Below are positions 27,260 to 33,400 of a DNA stretch of 37,941 nt, one piece after another; within the stretch, counting starts at the first letter, position 1, and the number at the start of each line of letters is the position of its first letter. The stretch is from Desulfobulbaceae bacterium (lineage in GTDB: Bacteria; Desulfobacterota; Desulfobulbia; Desulfobulbales; Desulfobulbaceae): the NCBI GenBank assembly GCA_013201405.1, contig JABMJC010000004.1, positions 1 through 37,941 on the forward strand, given 5' to 3'. Below the pieces are notes generated by a model that saw nothing but the letters and a program-made list of their open reading frames with translations, was not told the DNA's origin and searched no databases. The position numbers and the translations under genes were made by a program.

Positions 27260-27457
27260 ATGCCATATGCGAACATCAAGGTAACCGACGAAGGGGTGAG
27301 CCCTGCGCAAAAGGTCGAGTTGATTACCGGTGTCACTGAGTTGCTGCAGCGGGTGCTGCACAAAAATCCGGCGACCACCGTGGTGGTCATTGATGAGGTC
27401 GCCACCGACAACTGGGATGTTGGCGGCGAGCAGGTCAGCATCTTGAGGAAGAAATAG
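27260..27457 (+). CDS. 4-oxalocrotonate tautomerase-family protein
   Basis: This 65-residue protein begins MPYANIKVTDEGVS, so that Met removal exposes the catalytic N-terminal proline of the tautomerase superfamily. The rest (AQKVELITGVTELLQRVLHKNPATTVVVIDEV, quoted in part: KNPATTVVVIDEV) fits the beta-alpha-beta fold and length of 4-oxalocrotonate tautomerase. Such enzymes interconvert enol and keto acids, but small members have varied substrates. An AGGAG site precedes the ATG. It sits between nuoN and the deacetylase cluster, and no aromatic-degradation genes are nearby, so the substrate is open. Confidence 0.88.
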   Translation: MPYANIKVTDEGVSPAQKVELITGVTELLQRVLHKNPATTVVVIDEVATDNWDVGGEQVSILRKK

Positions 27458-27575: not shown

Positions 27576-28541
27576 ATGCGGCACGGTTCTTCACTTATCC
27601 TCATTACAGATCCCGCCTATAGTCGGCACGATACCGGCGGCGGCGACCATCCGGAAATTGCGGAACGCCTGCAGGTGATTCGCGAGGCCCTGGACCAGAG
27701 TTCCTTTGCCCAAAACATCCATATAGCAGTACCCCGGCCTGCAAGCCGCGCAGAACTCTTGGCCTTTCATGATGAGGCCTGGCTCTTTCGCTTTGAAGAA
27801 GCAGTGCTTTCCGGCCGCACCTATGTGGATCATCCTGATAATCAGGTCTGTTACGAATCCTACGCCATTGCCATGCTGTCGGCCGGTGCCGGGCTCAGTG
27901 GCATCGACCAGGTTGAACGGGGCCAGGTTGGCAACGTGGTTTTCTGCCTGACCAGGCCGCCAGGCCACCATGCCGAGGCAAACCAGCCCTTTGGTTTCTG
28001 TTTTTTCAATAACTGTGTCATTGCTGCCCGTTACTGGCAAAACCATTATGGTCGCACCAGAGTGGCAGTATTTGATTTCGATGCCCACCATGGCAACGGC
28101 ATCCAGAGCGCCCTGGAATCCGAGAACAATAGTGCCTACGTGTCCATCCATGAGCACCCCAGCTTCAGTTTTTCCGGTACCGGCTGGGAGGAGGAGCGGG
28201 GACTCGGTTCGGGCAAGGGAAGCATCCTCAATCTGCCGCTTCCGCCAGGTGCAGGTGATGCGCAGGTACAGCGCCTGCTTCCGAGAATTCGTCTTTTTCT
28301 TGAGGAGATGCAGCCCGATGCCTTGGTTGTTGGTGCAGGATTCGATGCCCATGTGGAAGATGACATGTCTGGCTTGGCCTATACAACTCCACTGTATCAG
28401 GAACTTGGTCGTTTTGTTCGCGCACTGGGGCGGGATATCTGCAGTGGCCGGGTGGTATCCATTCTTGAAGGCGGTTATCATCTGCCGCGGCTGGGCGAAT
28501 GTGCTACGGCTTATCTTGCCGGACTTTTGCAAGAAGAATGA
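27576..28541 (+). CDS. Histone-deacetylase-family protein deacetylase, AcuC-like
   Basis: I use the ATG at 27576 (321 residues) with a GGAGAG site; the frame from 27534 starts with TTG. The class II HDAC-type signature is visible: RPPGHHAEANQPFGFCFFNN (His131, His132), zinc ligands in DFDAHHGNG (Asp169, His171) and a third Asp in GAGFDAHVEDD. Bacterial relatives remove acetyl groups from protein lysines or from polyamines. Here it is the first gene of a set with an AcuB-like CBS protein, an acyl-CoA synthetase and a GNAT fusion, so reversing acetylation of the acetate-activating enzymes is the likely job. That role is inference from context. Confidence 0.88.
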   Translation: MRHGSSLILITDPAYSRHDTGGGDHPEIAERLQVIREALDQSSFAQNIHIAVPRPASRAELLAFHDEAWLFRFEEAVLSGRTYVDHPDNQVCYESYAIAMLSAGAGLSGIDQVERGQVGNVVFCLTRPPGHHAEANQPFGFCFFNNCVIAARYWQNHYGRTRVAVFDFDAHHGNGIQSALESENNSAYVSIHEHPSFSFSGTGWEEERGLGSGKGSILNLPLPPGAGDAQVQRLLPRIRLFLEEMQPDALVVGAGFDAHVEDDMSGLAYTTPLYQELGRFVRALGRDICSGRVVSILEGGYHLPRLGECATAYLAGLLQEE

Positions 28542-28595
28542 TCCTGCACCTGCCAGGCGCAGCAAGAGTACAGAACGCAGGGTTTTGGAGGCAAT

Positions 28596-29252
28596 ATGTT
28601 CATCCATTATCATATGACCCCCACACCAACCACCATGCATCCGGAGCAAACCGTGGCCGAGGCCATTGCTATACTGGAGCACTATCCTTTCCGGCACCTG
28701 CCTGTAGTGGATGATGAGGGGGTGCTGCAGGGTATGATTTCCGATCGGGATTTGCGCTCTGCCCGGCCGTCCAATGTGGCCAGCAGCAGTCAGCGGGAAA
28801 TAGTGGAGAGCAAGGTCATGCAAACAGGGCTTGCACAGATCATGAGTACCAATTGCCGCACCCTTTCTGCCATGGCCACCCTGGATGACGCCCTGTTCCT
28901 CTTTGAGGCGAACGCCATTGGTGCTCTGCCGGTTTTGGATGATGAGCGACGGGTGATTGGCATCTTTACCAATGGCGACTTGCTGAAGGCCTACAAGAAT
29001 CTCTTTGGAGTGGGCGAACGCGGCGCTGCCCTGATCTCCATTGTGGATGATGATGATCCGCGCATCATGAGTAAACTCATTTGCATCCTGGAGGAAAAGA
29101 ATGTGCACTGCACCCGGTTGCTGCGCAAGGCTGCGACCCGGCGCACTAGGGCCATGATCTATTTGCGGGTGAACACTTACAATATCCGTGCCGTGCAAAA
29201 GGCAGTCGAGGCGGCCGGGTATGAGATCCACGTACCCTACGCCACCCGTTGA
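28596..29252 (+). CDS. CBS-domain protein with C-terminal ACT-like region, AcuB-like
   Basis: This 218-residue protein has two CBS domains (about 3-60 and 80-140; HLPVVDDEGVLQGMISDRDL and ALPVLDDERRVIGIFTNGDL) followed by a C-terminal region (about 143-215) that fits an ACT-like fold. This is the layout of AcuB from the Bacillus acetoin/acetate locus. CBS pairs often bind adenine nucleotides and could report energy charge. A GGAGG site precedes the ATG. It is placed between the deacetylase and the acyl-CoA synthetase. Confidence 0.85.
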   Translation: MFIHYHMTPTPTTMHPEQTVAEAIAILEHYPFRHLPVVDDEGVLQGMISDRDLRSARPSNVASSSQREIVESKVMQTGLAQIMSTNCRTLSAMATLDDALFLFEANAIGALPVLDDERRVIGIFTNGDLLKAYKNLFGVGERGAALISIVDDDDPRIMSKLICILEEKNVHCTRLLRKAATRRTRAMIYLRVNTYNIRAVQKAVEAAGYEIHVPYATR

Positions 29253-29293
29253 ACTGCAAGTGTCTGTGTACCATCTAAGAGCGCGAGGTCTGT

Positions 29294-31411
29294 ATGCTTG
29301 AGAAACTCTTTTCTCCCCAATCGGTTGCAGTTATCGGCGCCTCGAAGGTAAAGGGCAAGGTTGGCCACACCACCTTGCACAATCTTGTCCAGGCGGGTTT
29401 TAGAGGGCCGATTGTTCCGGTCAACCCGCAGGGGGGGGAAATTCTGGGTCTTAAGGTATATGCACATCTTGCCGATTATCCCCATGTCATTGATTTGGCC
29501 CTGATCACAGTGCCTGCTGAAAAAACCCTGGATGCGGTGCAGGACGCCATTGCCAAGAAGGTGAGCGCAGTGGTGGTAGTGGCTTCAGGATTCAAAGAAA
29601 GCGGTCCGAGCGGTGCACAACTGGAAGAGGAGTTGGTGGCTCTGTGTGCCAAGGGAGGAGTACGGCTTTTGGGTCCCAACTGCCTGGGATTGATCAACAC
29701 GCATCTGCAACTGAACGCCTCCTTTTCCCGGCGTATGCCGCAACTAGGAAAGTTGGCGGTATTTTCCCAGTCCGGTGCGCTCTGTACTGCCATGATGGAT
29801 GAGGCTGATTCCCGCAGGCTGGGAGTGAGTGTGTCAGTATCCATTGGCAACAAGGCAGACATTACCGAGGTGGATATCCTCTCCTATTTGGCCAGCGATG
29901 AGGCCACTAAGGTTATCACCGGTTATCTGGAAGATATTACCGATGGTGACCAGTTCGTCAAGTCGGCGGAGGAGGCGAGTAAGCAGAAACCAGTGGTGAT
30001 CCTCAAGGCAGGCATCACCGAAGCGGGTGCGCGGGCAGCATCGCACCACACCGGGGTGGCCACTGGCCAAGACACAGCCTATGGGGCGGCCTTCAAGCGG
30101 GCGGGCATCTGTCGGGCCGACACCTTTGAAGCGCTCTTCGATTACGCTACAGCCCTTGCTCTGCAACCGCCACCCCAGGGAGACCGGGTTTTCATCCTGA
30201 CCAATTCTGGCGGCACCGGTACTGTGGCAGCCGATGCAGTGGAAAAGGCAGACATGTTGGTTCCCCAGTTGTCTGAGGACCTGCGTGCGGAACTCACCCG
30301 CATTCTGCCGGTGCGGGGGTATATCAATAATCCCACCGATGTGTCGGCCGGAGCCACACCGCAACAGTACGTGGATGCACTCAAGGCAGTCCAGGCCAAT
30401 CCTGATATTGACGCGGTACTGGTGGTGCTGGCGCCGCAATACATCAACGAACCTGCAGCCACGGTGCGTGCCATTGCCGCCAACCTGGATGGTGTCACCC
30501 CGGTACTGGCCTCGTTCCTCGGTAGCCGCGAAGGTATGCCTACCCGGGCCGAACTGGCCGAGGCTGGTTTGCCTTTTTATCCCTCGCCCGAACGGGCCGT
30601 AGGCGCACTCAAGGCCATGCACGAATACGGGGTGTGGCGGCGCAGACCTGCACGCCACGTGGTGCGCTTCCCGGTGAATCGCCGCCGGGTGGAGCGAATC
30701 ATTACCCATTGGCAACGCAGTGGCCATTCACGGCTGGATGAGGTCAGGTCAAAGAGCATTCTCAAATCTTACGGCTTTCGTATCATGTCTGGCCGGCTCA
30801 CCAGTAGCCCGGAGGAGGCCATAGAAATTGCCCAATTCATCGGTTATCCAGTGGCCATGAAAGTTGTCTCGCCCCACATTGTGCGGAAAAGTGATCTGGG
30901 CGGGGTGCGCCTCAACATCGGTTCCAGCGAAGAGGTGGCCGATGCCTTTGACCTGATGATGCTGCGTTTGCGCAAACATGCGCCCAATGCACTCATTGAG
31001 GGTGTGTATGTGGAGAAGATGGCGGAAAAGGGCCTGGAGGTGATCATCGGTATGACCCGTGATCCCCAGTTCGGTCCCATGCTCATGTTTGGTTTGGGCG
31101 GCATTTTTGTGGAGGTGATGAAGGATGTCACCTTCCATTTGGCACCCATCACCGAAGGAGAGGCGGTGCAGATGCTCAAGTCCACCCGTTCCTATGAGCT
31201 GTTGGAGGGCAAACGCGGTACCAAGGAAGTGGACATTGCGGCCATTGCCGTGGCTCTGCAGCGCATCAGCCAGCTGACCACCGACTTTCCGCAGATTGTC
31301 GAACTGGATATCAACCCACTCATTATTGGTGAGCGGGAGCTTGAGCCGGTGGTGGTGGATGCGGGCATGACCTTTGCCAGCAATGTGCAAGAAAATGGCA
31401 AGGGCAGTTGA
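29294..31411 (+). CDS. ADP-forming acetate/acyl-CoA synthetase, fused alpha-beta form
   Basis: This 705-residue protein carries a CoA-binding Rossmann domain at the start (SVAVIGASKVKGKVG), two succinyl-CoA-ligase-like domains (VFSQSGALC at 157-164; SHHTGVATGQD with His252 as the likely phosphohistidine) and a C-terminal ATP-grasp domain (about 480-700). The enzyme converts an acyl-CoA, ADP and phosphate to the acid, CoA and ATP, or runs in reverse. It conserves energy in anaerobes and differs from AMP-forming AcsA. The next gene starts at or near its stop, which indicates an operon with the CoA-transferase. The specificity for acetate is not proven by sequence. Confidence 0.92.
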   Translation: MLEKLFSPQSVAVIGASKVKGKVGHTTLHNLVQAGFRGPIVPVNPQGGEILGLKVYAHLADYPHVIDLALITVPAEKTLDAVQDAIAKKVSAVVVVASGFKESGPSGAQLEEELVALCAKGGVRLLGPNCLGLINTHLQLNASFSRRMPQLGKLAVFSQSGALCTAMMDEADSRRLGVSVSVSIGNKADITEVDILSYLASDEATKVITGYLEDITDGDQFVKSAEEASKQKPVVILKAGITEAGARAASHHTGVATGQDTAYGAAFKRAGICRADTFEALFDYATALALQPPPQGDRVFILTNSGGTGTVAADAVEKADMLVPQLSEDLRAELTRILPVRGYINNPTDVSAGATPQQYVDALKAVQANPDIDAVLVVLAPQYINEPAATVRAIAANLDGVTPVLASFLGSREGMPTRAELAEAGLPFYPSPERAVGALKAMHEYGVWRRRPARHVVRFPVNRRRVERIITHWQRSGHSRLDEVRSKSILKSYGFRIMSGRLTSSPEEAIEIAQFIGYPVAMKVVSPHIVRKSDLGGVRLNIGSSEEVADAFDLMMLRLRKHAPNALIEGVYVEKMAEKGLEVIIGMTRDPQFGPMLMFGLGGIFVEVMKDVTFHLAPITEGEAVQMLKSTRSYELLEGKRGTKEVDIAAIAVALQRISQLTTDFPQIVELDINPLIIGERELEPVVVDAGMTFASNVQENGKGS

Positions 31412-31434
31412 GGCTTTATTACCAGGGGGCTGCA

Positions 31435-33315
31435 ATGCGCTACGATCAAGATTGGCAGACACAGTATGCAGATATGGTGGCCACGCCCCAGGAGGCACTG
31501 GTCCATTTGAAATCTGGCCAACGGGTGTTCATCGGTACTGGTTGCGGCGCGCCCCAGGAACTGATTGCCGCCATGACCGCCCGGGGCCGTTCAGTCACCG
31601 ATGTGGAGATCATTCAACTGATCACCAAGGGCGATGCGCCCTATGCCAGCAAAAAACTTTCCGACAGCTTTACCTTGAACGCCTTTTTTATCAGCTCCAA
31701 TATCCGCGAGGTGATTCAAGAAGGCTTTGGCGATTACACTCCGATTTTGCTCTCTGATGTGCCTCAGCTCCTGGATTCCGGGGCCATGCCCATTGACTTG
31801 GCCCTTATCCAAGTGACCCCGCCGGATACTTATGGCCGGGTAAGCCTGGGTGTTTCGGTGGACATTGTTAAAAGTGCCATTGGTAACGCCAGTCTGGTGA
31901 TTGCTGAAGTGAATCCAAATATGCCCTGGACCCACGGCGACACCTTGGTGGATGTGTTCGACCTCGATATCCTGGTACCGGTGGACAGGCCTATCCTGGA
32001 ACGGGAGCTTGACCCGCCCAATGAAATTGCCCTCAAGATTGCCAAGTCAGCTGTGGCCCTTATCCCCAATGGCTCGACCATTCAGTTGGGCATTGGCCGG
32101 GTGCCGGGGTATGGGCGTATCCCCCAGGTAGTGATGCGTTTTTTGTCGGAACGCAAAGATATCGGTTTTCATACAGAAATGATCTCGGATGCCATCATCC
32201 CACTGATCGAGTCGGGTGCGGTCACCGGTGCAATGAAGTCCATTGACCGGGGCAAGATCACTGCCAGTTTCTGCATGGGAACCAAAAAACTCTACGATTA
32301 TATCCACGACAACCCGCTGTTTAGCTTCCGGCCAACTGAGTACATTAACGACCCCAACGTGATCGGCAAGCACCGGCGCATGGTATCGGTGAATATGGCT
32401 CTGGAGATCGATCTCACCGGCCAGGTCTGTTCGGATTCCGTGGGTGGTCGTTTTTATTCCGGCGTGGGGGGGCAGGTTGATTTCAACCGTGGTGCGGCCA
32501 AATCAGAGCGGGGCCGCGCCATTATCGTGCTTCCCTCGGTGAGCAGCGACGGTACACGTTCACTGGTGGTCAGCGCCCTGCAGCCCGGTTCCGGCGTGGT
32601 CATCAACCGAGCCAGCGTGCACTACGTGGTCACCGAGCATGGCGTTGCCTATCTGCACGGCAAATCCATACAGGAGCGGGCCATGGAGCTGATCTCCATA
32701 GCCCATCCGGATTTCCGTGAACAGCTCTTCCGCGAAGCAGTGGCCGCCAGGTACCTGCGGCCCGATCTGGCCCGCTTCGGCAACCGCTTTACCCTGCCTG
32801 GCGAAGAGGGCATGCGTGCCACCTTCCTGCTCGAAGACGGCACCCAGGTAAATTTCCGTTCCATCCGCCCCACGGACGAACCGCATATGCGCGATCTCAT
32901 CCACAATCTCTCGCAGGAAACCATCTACTACCGCTTCATGAGCCATCAACAGCGCTTCACTTCGCGCCAGATTCAGGACTTTGTCTATATCGATCACCGC
33001 CGCGATGTGGCGGTGGTGGCCACCCTACCTGATGTGCAGGGTGAGCAAATCATTGCAGTGGGCACCTATTATCTCAACGAAAGTACCAACAAGGCCGAGG
33101 TGGCCTTTGTGGTGCGGGATTCCTGGCAGAGCAAAGGGCTGGGAACCTTTATCTTCCAGCATCTGATCAAAATTGCCAAGCGCAACGGCATTGCCGGCTT
33201 CACCGCCGAAGTGCTACGCGAGAACGAACGCATGCAAAGCGTATTCAATAATTCTGGCCTGCGGGTGACCAGCAGCCTGGAGGAGGGCGTGTACAGCTTT
33301 GATATGTTGTTTTAA
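31435..33315 (+). CDS. Acetyl-CoA hydrolase/CoA-transferase fused to a GNAT acetyltransferase domain
   Basis: I chose ATG 31435 (626 residues) behind an AGGGGG site; a TTG at 31408 would add nine residues. Residues 1-450 form a Cat1/AbfT-type CoA-transferase: the catalytic glutamate lies in FHTEMISD (Glu248), followed by GGQVDFNRGA and VTEHGVAYLHGKSIQERA. Residues from about 470 to the end form a GNAT domain with the acetyl-CoA-binding motif QSKGLGT. Fusion places a likely lysine acetyltransferase on an enzyme that handles acyl-CoA. It lies next to an AcuC-like deacetylase and an AcuB-like CBS protein, so it may supply the AcuA function in cis. Confidence 0.9.
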   Translation: MRYDQDWQTQYADMVATPQEALVHLKSGQRVFIGTGCGAPQELIAAMTARGRSVTDVEIIQLITKGDAPYASKKLSDSFTLNAFFISSNIREVIQEGFGDYTPILLSDVPQLLDSGAMPIDLALIQVTPPDTYGRVSLGVSVDIVKSAIGNASLVIAEVNPNMPWTHGDTLVDVFDLDILVPVDRPILERELDPPNEIALKIAKSAVALIPNGSTIQLGIGRVPGYGRIPQVVMRFLSERKDIGFHTEMISDAIIPLIESGAVTGAMKSIDRGKITASFCMGTKKLYDYIHDNPLFSFRPTEYINDPNVIGKHRRMVSVNMALEIDLTGQVCSDSVGGRFYSGVGGQVDFNRGAAKSERGRAIIVLPSVSSDGTRSLVVSALQPGSGVVINRASVHYVVTEHGVAYLHGKSIQERAMELISIAHPDFREQLFREAVAARYLRPDLARFGNRFTLPGEEGMRATFLLEDGTQVNFRSIRPTDEPHMRDLIHNLSQETIYYRFMSHQQRFTSRQIQDFVYIDHRRDVAVVATLPDVQGEQIIAVGTYYLNESTNKAEVAFVVRDSWQSKGLGTFIFQHLIKIAKRNGIAGFTAEVLRENERMQSVFNNSGLRVTSSLEEGVYSFDMLF

Positions 33316-33362: not shown

Positions 33363-33400
33363 CAGCTTACAAACCAAGGCTGTACCTGGTCTGTAAGCTG
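33363..33400. terminator. Hairpin between convergent genes
   Basis: CAGCTTACA (33363-33371) and TGTAAGCTG (33392-33400) form a 9-bp stem around a 20-base loop that contains an inner ACCA/TGGT pairing. It sits between the CoA-transferase (ends 33315) and the inositol phosphate synthase (ends 33423 on the other strand). No strong T-run follows on either side, so termination is probable but not certain. Confidence 0.5.

Follow-up and report, generated by a model that had tools for sequence, protein, structure and literature searches.

Can the acetylation switch that controls acetate activation in Bacillus be assembled around other enzymes, and which enzyme would it then act on? The question is raised by four neighbouring genes in a 37,941-nt stretch of DNA (the window) from a Desulfobulbaceae bacterium (GCA_013201405.1, contig JABMJC010000004.1, positions 1–37,941, forward strand). 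They encode a deacetylase of the HDAC family, an AcuB-like protein, an ADP-forming acyl-CoA synthetase (ACD) and a CoA-transferase (CoAT) fused to a GNAT domain. An earlier reading of the DNA letters (the sequence-only reading) had proposed that the three acuABC functions here surround a different enzyme, the loop being rebuilt around an ADP-forming synthetase in place of the AMP-forming one. We find an acuABC-like loop at this locus to be well supported. In this probable operon the ACD and the CoAT, as an acetate/acyl-CoA exchange pair, would be tied to a switch that regulates acetate activation by reversible lysine acetylation; its likeliest target would be the AMP-forming acetyl-CoA synthetase (Acs), with the ACD as a plausible second one.

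The four proteins and their relatives

The four families named by the sequence-only reading were confirmed by Pfam and NCBIfam domains, and catalytic residues were retained in all HDAC, ACD, CoAT and GNAT homologues examined. The acetyltransferase is the C-terminal part of a 627-aa protein in which Pfam places the N- and C-terminal AcetylCoA_hydro domains before a GNAT domain. Structure matches of both domains in the AlphaFold model (pLDDT 86) bear out that the GNAT is fused to a CoA-transferase. The best structural match of the GNAT domain was 4u5y, the GNAT of SlPat solved with the C-terminal domain of an AMP-forming acetyl-CoA synthetase (Z 18.1), and its best phmmer matches were SlPatA (2e-18), Pat-type 'protein acetyltransferase' chains (1.4e-16) and mycobacterial Pat (6e-12). 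Each of the nine Protein Data Bank (PDB) matches with E ≤ 1e-3 carries a name that marks it as a protein or lysine acetyltransferase, or else is the SlPat GNAT. Against NF058543, the model for Pat-type GNATs, the fusion scored 76 bits, below the cut-off; the GNAT fold, catalytic Glu and acetyl-CoA loop expected of a Pat-type domain are all present. Both Glu111 and the YYRFM motif were found in 72/72 homologues, and the latter opens a loop of low model confidence (residues 498–519) that could be a substrate loop. Whereas AcuA is a stand-alone GNAT that acetylates AcsA, the window GNAT is thus one domain of a fusion and is nearest to the Pat enzymes. With type I Pat (E. coli PatZ, Salmonella Pat) and type II Pat (S. 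lividans PatA) it shares the attachment of a Pat-type GNAT to an acyl-CoA-handling domain. The CoA-transferase-GNAT architecture is outside the five GNAT types listed in a 2021 review (PMC8556138).

The CoAT domain has 4-hydroxybutyrate CoA-transferases as its nearest structures (Z 51.8 to 2oas). Fold and catalytic Glu (73/73 homologues) are common to the 4-hydroxybutyrate/butyryl-CoA:acetate CoA-transferases (Family I), from which the window protein differs by its extra C-terminal GNAT. At the motif GIGRVPGYGRIP (about 32089–32124) a glycine-rich active-site loop carries a six-residue insertion, present in 48 of the 73 homologues and absent from 25.

The synthetase has the Pfam set CoA_binding, Succ_CoA_lig and ATP-grasp_5 of an ADP-forming acyl-CoA synthetase with alpha and beta parts fused. 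Its best PDB match was 8wzu, a 4-hydroxybutyrate-CoA ligase (ADP-forming) (E = 4e-152), and its catalytic phospho-His252 is kept in 61/61 homologues. Domain set and phospho-His are those of the Nitrosopumilus 4-hydroxybutyrate-CoA ligase and of archaeal ACDs, but the window enzyme is bacterial and linked to an acetylation module. It scored 530 bits with TIGR02717 (Acetate--CoA ligase, ADP-forming), below the curated cut-off of 567, and the CoAT reached no substrate-specific NCBIfam cut-off. Both had been proposed as acetate enzymes: the families stand, and acetate is a presumed substrate, the two proteins lying below the curated substrate-specific cut-offs. Lysines at functional motifs of the ACD, such as K532 in the ATP-grasp motif, are invariant. 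The search for a conserved ACD lysine specific to HDAC-linked loci gave only weak candidates, K318 (0.91 versus 0.41) and K268 (0.95 versus 0.69), with frequencies uncorrected for relatedness.

The deacetylase matched Hist_deacetyl (Pfam PF00850) with 271 bits. Its best PDB matches were HDAC6 and bacterial HDAH-type enzymes, and the best 60 of 137 include none named as a class I HDAC. The zinc ligands, the His pair and the Tyr (His131-His132, Asp169-x-His171, Asp257, Tyr301) were invariant in 24/24 homologues. Every catalytic residue is common to its closest sequence relatives, the class II HDAC-like amidohydrolases (HDAC6, Bordetella-type HDAH), from which it differs in being encoded together with an AcuB-like regulator. 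The literature places AcuC with the class I HDACs as a homologue (PMC13039410); set against the PDB matches above, this leads us to reject orthology with AcuC on class. 'AcuC-like', the term first applied to it, therefore holds for a zinc deacetylase and putative functional counterpart of AcuC but not for an AcuC ortholog.

The CBS protein was rightly called AcuB-like. Pfam finds two CBS domains, and the tandem CBS (Bateman) pair is followed by a C-terminal ACT domain as in AcuB. Geobacillus AcuB is matched over its full length (phmmer E = 1.1e-23), and the nine best PDB matches of the AlphaFold model (pLDDT 89.5) are all AcuB (Z 19–20, about 200 aa). The nucleotide-bridging Arg-His pair is retained in 28/29 and 29/29 homologues, Asp47 in 28/29 and Asp123 in 29/29, while the equivalent of Met188, which reaches into AcuC, is Tyr, Met or Phe in 26/29, mostly Tyr. 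AcuB inhibits the HDAC AcuC (PMC13121692, PMC13039410), and the window protein is predicted to be an adenine-nucleotide-sensing regulator of its HDAC. The known systems point to more than one candidate ligand: the inhibitory state of Geobacillus AcuB is with AMP (PMC13121692), whereas another study found inhibition strengthened by Ap4A (PMC13039410).

Recurrence of the gene order and exchange of the GNAT carrier

Using the fusion protein as query, we found 80 loci; counts are limited to those with enough flanking sequence. Conservation of the four-gene order had been put forward as a check on the proposed loop, and the full order HDAC-AcuB-ACD-CoAT-GNAT indeed recurs in 22/57 loci with sufficient upstream sequence. 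An ACD immediately upstream of the CoAT-GNAT was still more frequent (67 of the 69 informative loci). This recurrence rules out a chance neighbourhood. The ACD/CoAT-GNAT pair extends to Verrucomicrobia, Planctomycetes, Kiritimatiellae and Lentisphaerae, and the four-gene form is seen mainly in Desulfobulbaceae and neighbours. A similar GNAT occurs in 140/247 sampled genomes of the phylum, often as several frames of 630–660 aa, which together with the locus survey rules out a fusion peculiar to the window genome. At L033 and L043 a CBS gene stands beside ACD-CoAT-GNAT without a linked HDAC, and L057 has an HDAC without the CBS gene.

A search of the phylum for HDAC-AcuB loci with the AcuB-like protein as query revealed four genomes (L135–L138) in which the same HDAC-AcuB pair comes after an ACD-GNAT of Pat type (about 900 aa), so that a Pat protein stands in for the CoAT-GNAT. 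Pat-HDAC-AcuB is then followed by a free ACD in L135, L137 and L138; no ACD follows in L136. In both the HDAC tree and the AcuB tree, CoAT-GNAT-linked and Pat-linked pairs share one 100/99 clade, and L062, a CoAT-GNAT locus, falls among the Pat-linked rows. Acetyltransferase, HDAC and AcuB thus stay together while the carrier protein of the GNAT changes. That the trio persists across this swap is the best reason we have to think that the fusion's GNAT acts as a Pat.

The four Pat-linked loci belong to other families, and the next open reading frame (ORF) in L137 and L138 resembles the N-terminal part of Pta. Other HDAC-AcuB pairs (L140, L141, L144, L148) lie in a recurring neighbourhood with a conserved ORF of unknown function and a metallo-beta-lactamase-like ORF, with a CooC-like ATPase in some and a sirtuin-like ORF in L144.

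Candidate targets and competing explanations

Besides the four genes, the window genome encodes an AMP-forming Acs with a PKTRSGK (PX4GK) site, Pta and AckA. The same PKTRSGK is present in the linked Acs of relatives, while a search for PX4GK in the ACD sequence gave none. Paralogous HDAC-AcuB pairs lie adjacent to or divergent from Acs at L145, L163, L164 and L168, and Acs is divergent from the ACD-CoAT-GNAT pair at L072, L075, L078 and L081 (Verrucomicrobia/Kiritimatiellae/Lentisphaerae). At L072, an unrelated HDAC gene sits between Acs and the pair. G068 has Pat-HDAC-AcuB and Acs with no free ACD, and at L058/L061 the trio is found without linkage to the ACD. In G053, from the window's own genus, Acs, free ACD, AcuB-like protein, CoAT-GNAT and the HDAC ortholog are all absent together. 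All 39 locus-bearing genomes tested had Acs, compared with 203/247 in the phylum background; because of this high background, and since the genomes are related and the counts not phylogenetically independent, co-occurrence alone is modest evidence. On the linkage in relatives, G068, G053 and the 39/39 occurrence taken together, we hold Acs to be the likelier target, with the neighbouring ACD as a possible second one. The ACD as sole target is weakened by G068, L058/L061 and the Acs linkage. Retention of Acs in the window genome and in all 39 locus-bearing genomes, its linkage in relatives and the trio without a free ACD in G068 leave the proposed rebuilding of the loop, with the ADP-forming enzyme replacing the AMP-forming one, only partly supported. 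That the three acuABC functions are encoded with a different enzyme does hold, with catalytic residues kept, but with a Pat-type rather than AcuA-type GNAT and a class II HDAC.

From gene content, conservation, catalytic residues, folds, linkage and the carrier swap we infer the activities, HDAC-AcuB binding, nucleotide response and targets of the following scheme. At high levels of acetyl-CoA (or propionyl-CoA), the GNAT borne by the CoA-transferase would turn an acyl-CoA synthetase off by acetylating its catalytic lysine. The class II HDAC would strip the acetyl group and restore activity. The AcuB-like CBS-ACT protein would bind adenine nucleotides and, when their state signals low energy charge, inhibit the HDAC. 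The target would most likely be the Acs encoded elsewhere in the genome, at its PKTRSGK site, with the neighbouring ACD as a plausible second. Sulfate reducers of the Desulfobulbus group release acetate, so a switch between the ATP-yielding ADP-forming and the ATP-costing AMP-forming route would be sensible in such organisms.

Several observations weigh against this scheme. The gene physically adjoining the switch is that of the ADP-forming ACD, whereas Acs lies on another contig with no deacetylase genes beside it. The genome also encodes two sirtuins, a second HDAC and a Pat-type ACD-GNAT, and Acs could be controlled by these instead. (The last, of 888 aa, lies at L099, 3967–6633, beside a P-type ATPase gene.) G234 lacks this GNAT and AcuB yet keeps both Acs and ACD, and relatives of HDAC-AcuB occur in genomes without any Acs (G103, G166, G152). 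Finally, the window protein has Tyr in place of Met188/189 of AcuB, whose mutation abolishes AcuC inhibition, and with a deacetylase of another class as partner the inhibitory contact may not be preserved.

A rival in the spirit of the sequence-only reading is a loop acting mainly in cis. Here the GNAT would acetylate the neighbouring ACD and/or its own CoAT domain and the HDAC would undo the modification, with Acs at most a secondary target. The tight ACD linkage (67/69), the free ACD after Pat-HDAC-AcuB in three of the four swapped loci and the invariant ACD lysines at functional motifs (K532) are in line with it. We nevertheless consider it unlikely, although worth keeping in mind: every one of the 39 locus genomes encodes Acs, which is linked in relatives, the trio occurs without a free ACD in G068 and with an unlinked one in L058/L061, the ACD has no PX4GK motif, and a shared metabolic role explains the ACD-CoAT-GNAT linkage equally well. 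The four genes might also be a mere metabolic cluster that includes a general deacetylase and its regulator, with no dedicated control loop. Bacillus AcuC has a wide range of substrates (PMC13039410), HDAC-AcuB pairs are also found in other settings (L139–L144, L148) and ACD-CoAT-GNAT often stands without them; yet the HDAC and AcuB of the present setting fall in a supported clade of their own and are kept with an acetyltransferase in two architectures, and HDAC genes are independently linked with Acs, which makes this explanation quite improbable. That the GNAT is no protein acetyltransferase but acylates small molecules or senses acyl-CoA, with HDAC-AcuB serving unrelated proteins, is very doubtful, given the naming of all nine PDB matches, the invariant catalytic Glu and YYRFM and the Pat swap beside the same HDAC-AcuB clade, even though GNAT substrates are difficult to predict and the common, often multi-copy fusion mostly lacks a linked HDAC-AcuB.

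Locus layout and relation to known systems

The host genome is 2.46 Mb, and the closest named relatives of the locus are Desulfobulbaceae (sulfate reducers). The four genes (Table 1) are all intact, on the plus strand and separated by gaps of about 54, 41 and 23 bp; they most likely form one operon. The CoAT-GNAT start is the ATG at 31435, 23 bp 3′ of the ACD stop. Upstream lie nuoN-like and other respiratory genes, and downstream is a convergent myo-inositol-phosphate synthase gene. A small ORF (27260–27457, plus strand; MPYANIKVTDEGVSPAQKVELITGVTELLQ...) resembling 4-oxalocrotonate tautomerase sits between nuoN and the HDAC gene. In scans of the region, the total number of terminator sites was no higher than in shuffles, and promoter predictions were close to the shuffle level.

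Table 1. Positions of the cluster genes, their domains and a hairpin in the window, and of linked Acs genes at four other loci (locus numbering)
Feature	Position	Strand	Basis
Class II-type Zn-dependent lysine deacetylase (HDAC6/HDAH-like)	27576..28541	+	Pfam, PDB matches, conserved residues
AcuB-like CBS-CBS-ACT protein	28596..29252	+	phmmer, AlphaFold model, conserved residues
ADP-forming acyl-CoA synthetase (ACD), single-chain alpha-beta	29294..31411	+	Pfam, PDB match, phospho-His
CoA-transferase with C-terminal Pat-type GNAT, 627 aa	31435..33315	+	Pfam, AlphaFold
CoA-transferase domain, catalytic Glu in HTEM motif	31435..32754	+	Conserved Glu, nearest structures
GNAT domain: AEVAF catalytic Glu, Q-x-x-G-x-G acetyl-CoA loop, YYRFM motif	32767..33312	+	phmmer, conservation
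Hairpin with T-run, 16-pair stem, between cluster and convergent myo-inositol-phosphate synthase gene	33363..33400	- (T-run side)	Terminator scan
Acs, L072	2482-4428		
Acs, L075	3618-5576		
Acs, L078	3590-5476		
Acs, L081	5-514		

This kind of system is already known from acuABC and from Pat/Acs. In common with acuABC-acsA of Bacillus and Geobacillus, the cluster has a GNAT lysine acetyltransferase, a CBS-CBS-ACT AcuB with retained fold and nucleotide-site residues, and a zinc deacetylase, tied to acyl-CoA synthesis. It differs in that the HDAC is class II-type here and class I in Bacillus, the acetyltransferase is Pat-type and fused to a CoA-transferase, and the linked synthetase is ADP-forming. 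The window also has no adjacent divergent AMP-forming acsA, Acs being on another contig, whereas a divergent Acs/HDAC-AcuB layout is found in the relatives L163, L164 and L168. We found nothing pertinent in the literature on a CoA-transferase-GNAT fusion or on AcuB paired with a class II HDAC, though a wider body of literature could hold such a report. Within the literature searched, the pairing of an AcuB-type protein with a class II HDAC, the putative CoA-transferase-GNAT acetyltransferase and the swap of carrier and synthetase around one HDAC-AcuB pair appear to be new.

An explanation of AcuB came only in 2026, when it was described in Bacilli as inhibiting a class I HDAC-like enzyme under nucleotide control (PMC13121692, PMC13039410). 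The loci described here show that AcuB-type proteins pair with class II HDACs across Desulfobacterota and move jointly between AMP- and ADP-forming acetate enzymes. The locus would offer a direct test of whether reversible acetylation reaches ADP-forming synthetases, and bears on how sulfate reducers balance acetate excretion against uptake. Tentatively, the fusion may even belong to a new lysine acetyltransferase class whose active CoAT supplies or senses acyl-CoA for a Pat-type GNAT. Together with an AcuB-regulated class II HDAC, it would then control both Acs and, as a first case, an ACD. If such dual control were true, sulfate reducers could choose between releasing acetate with a gain of ATP and taking it up at the cost of ATP.

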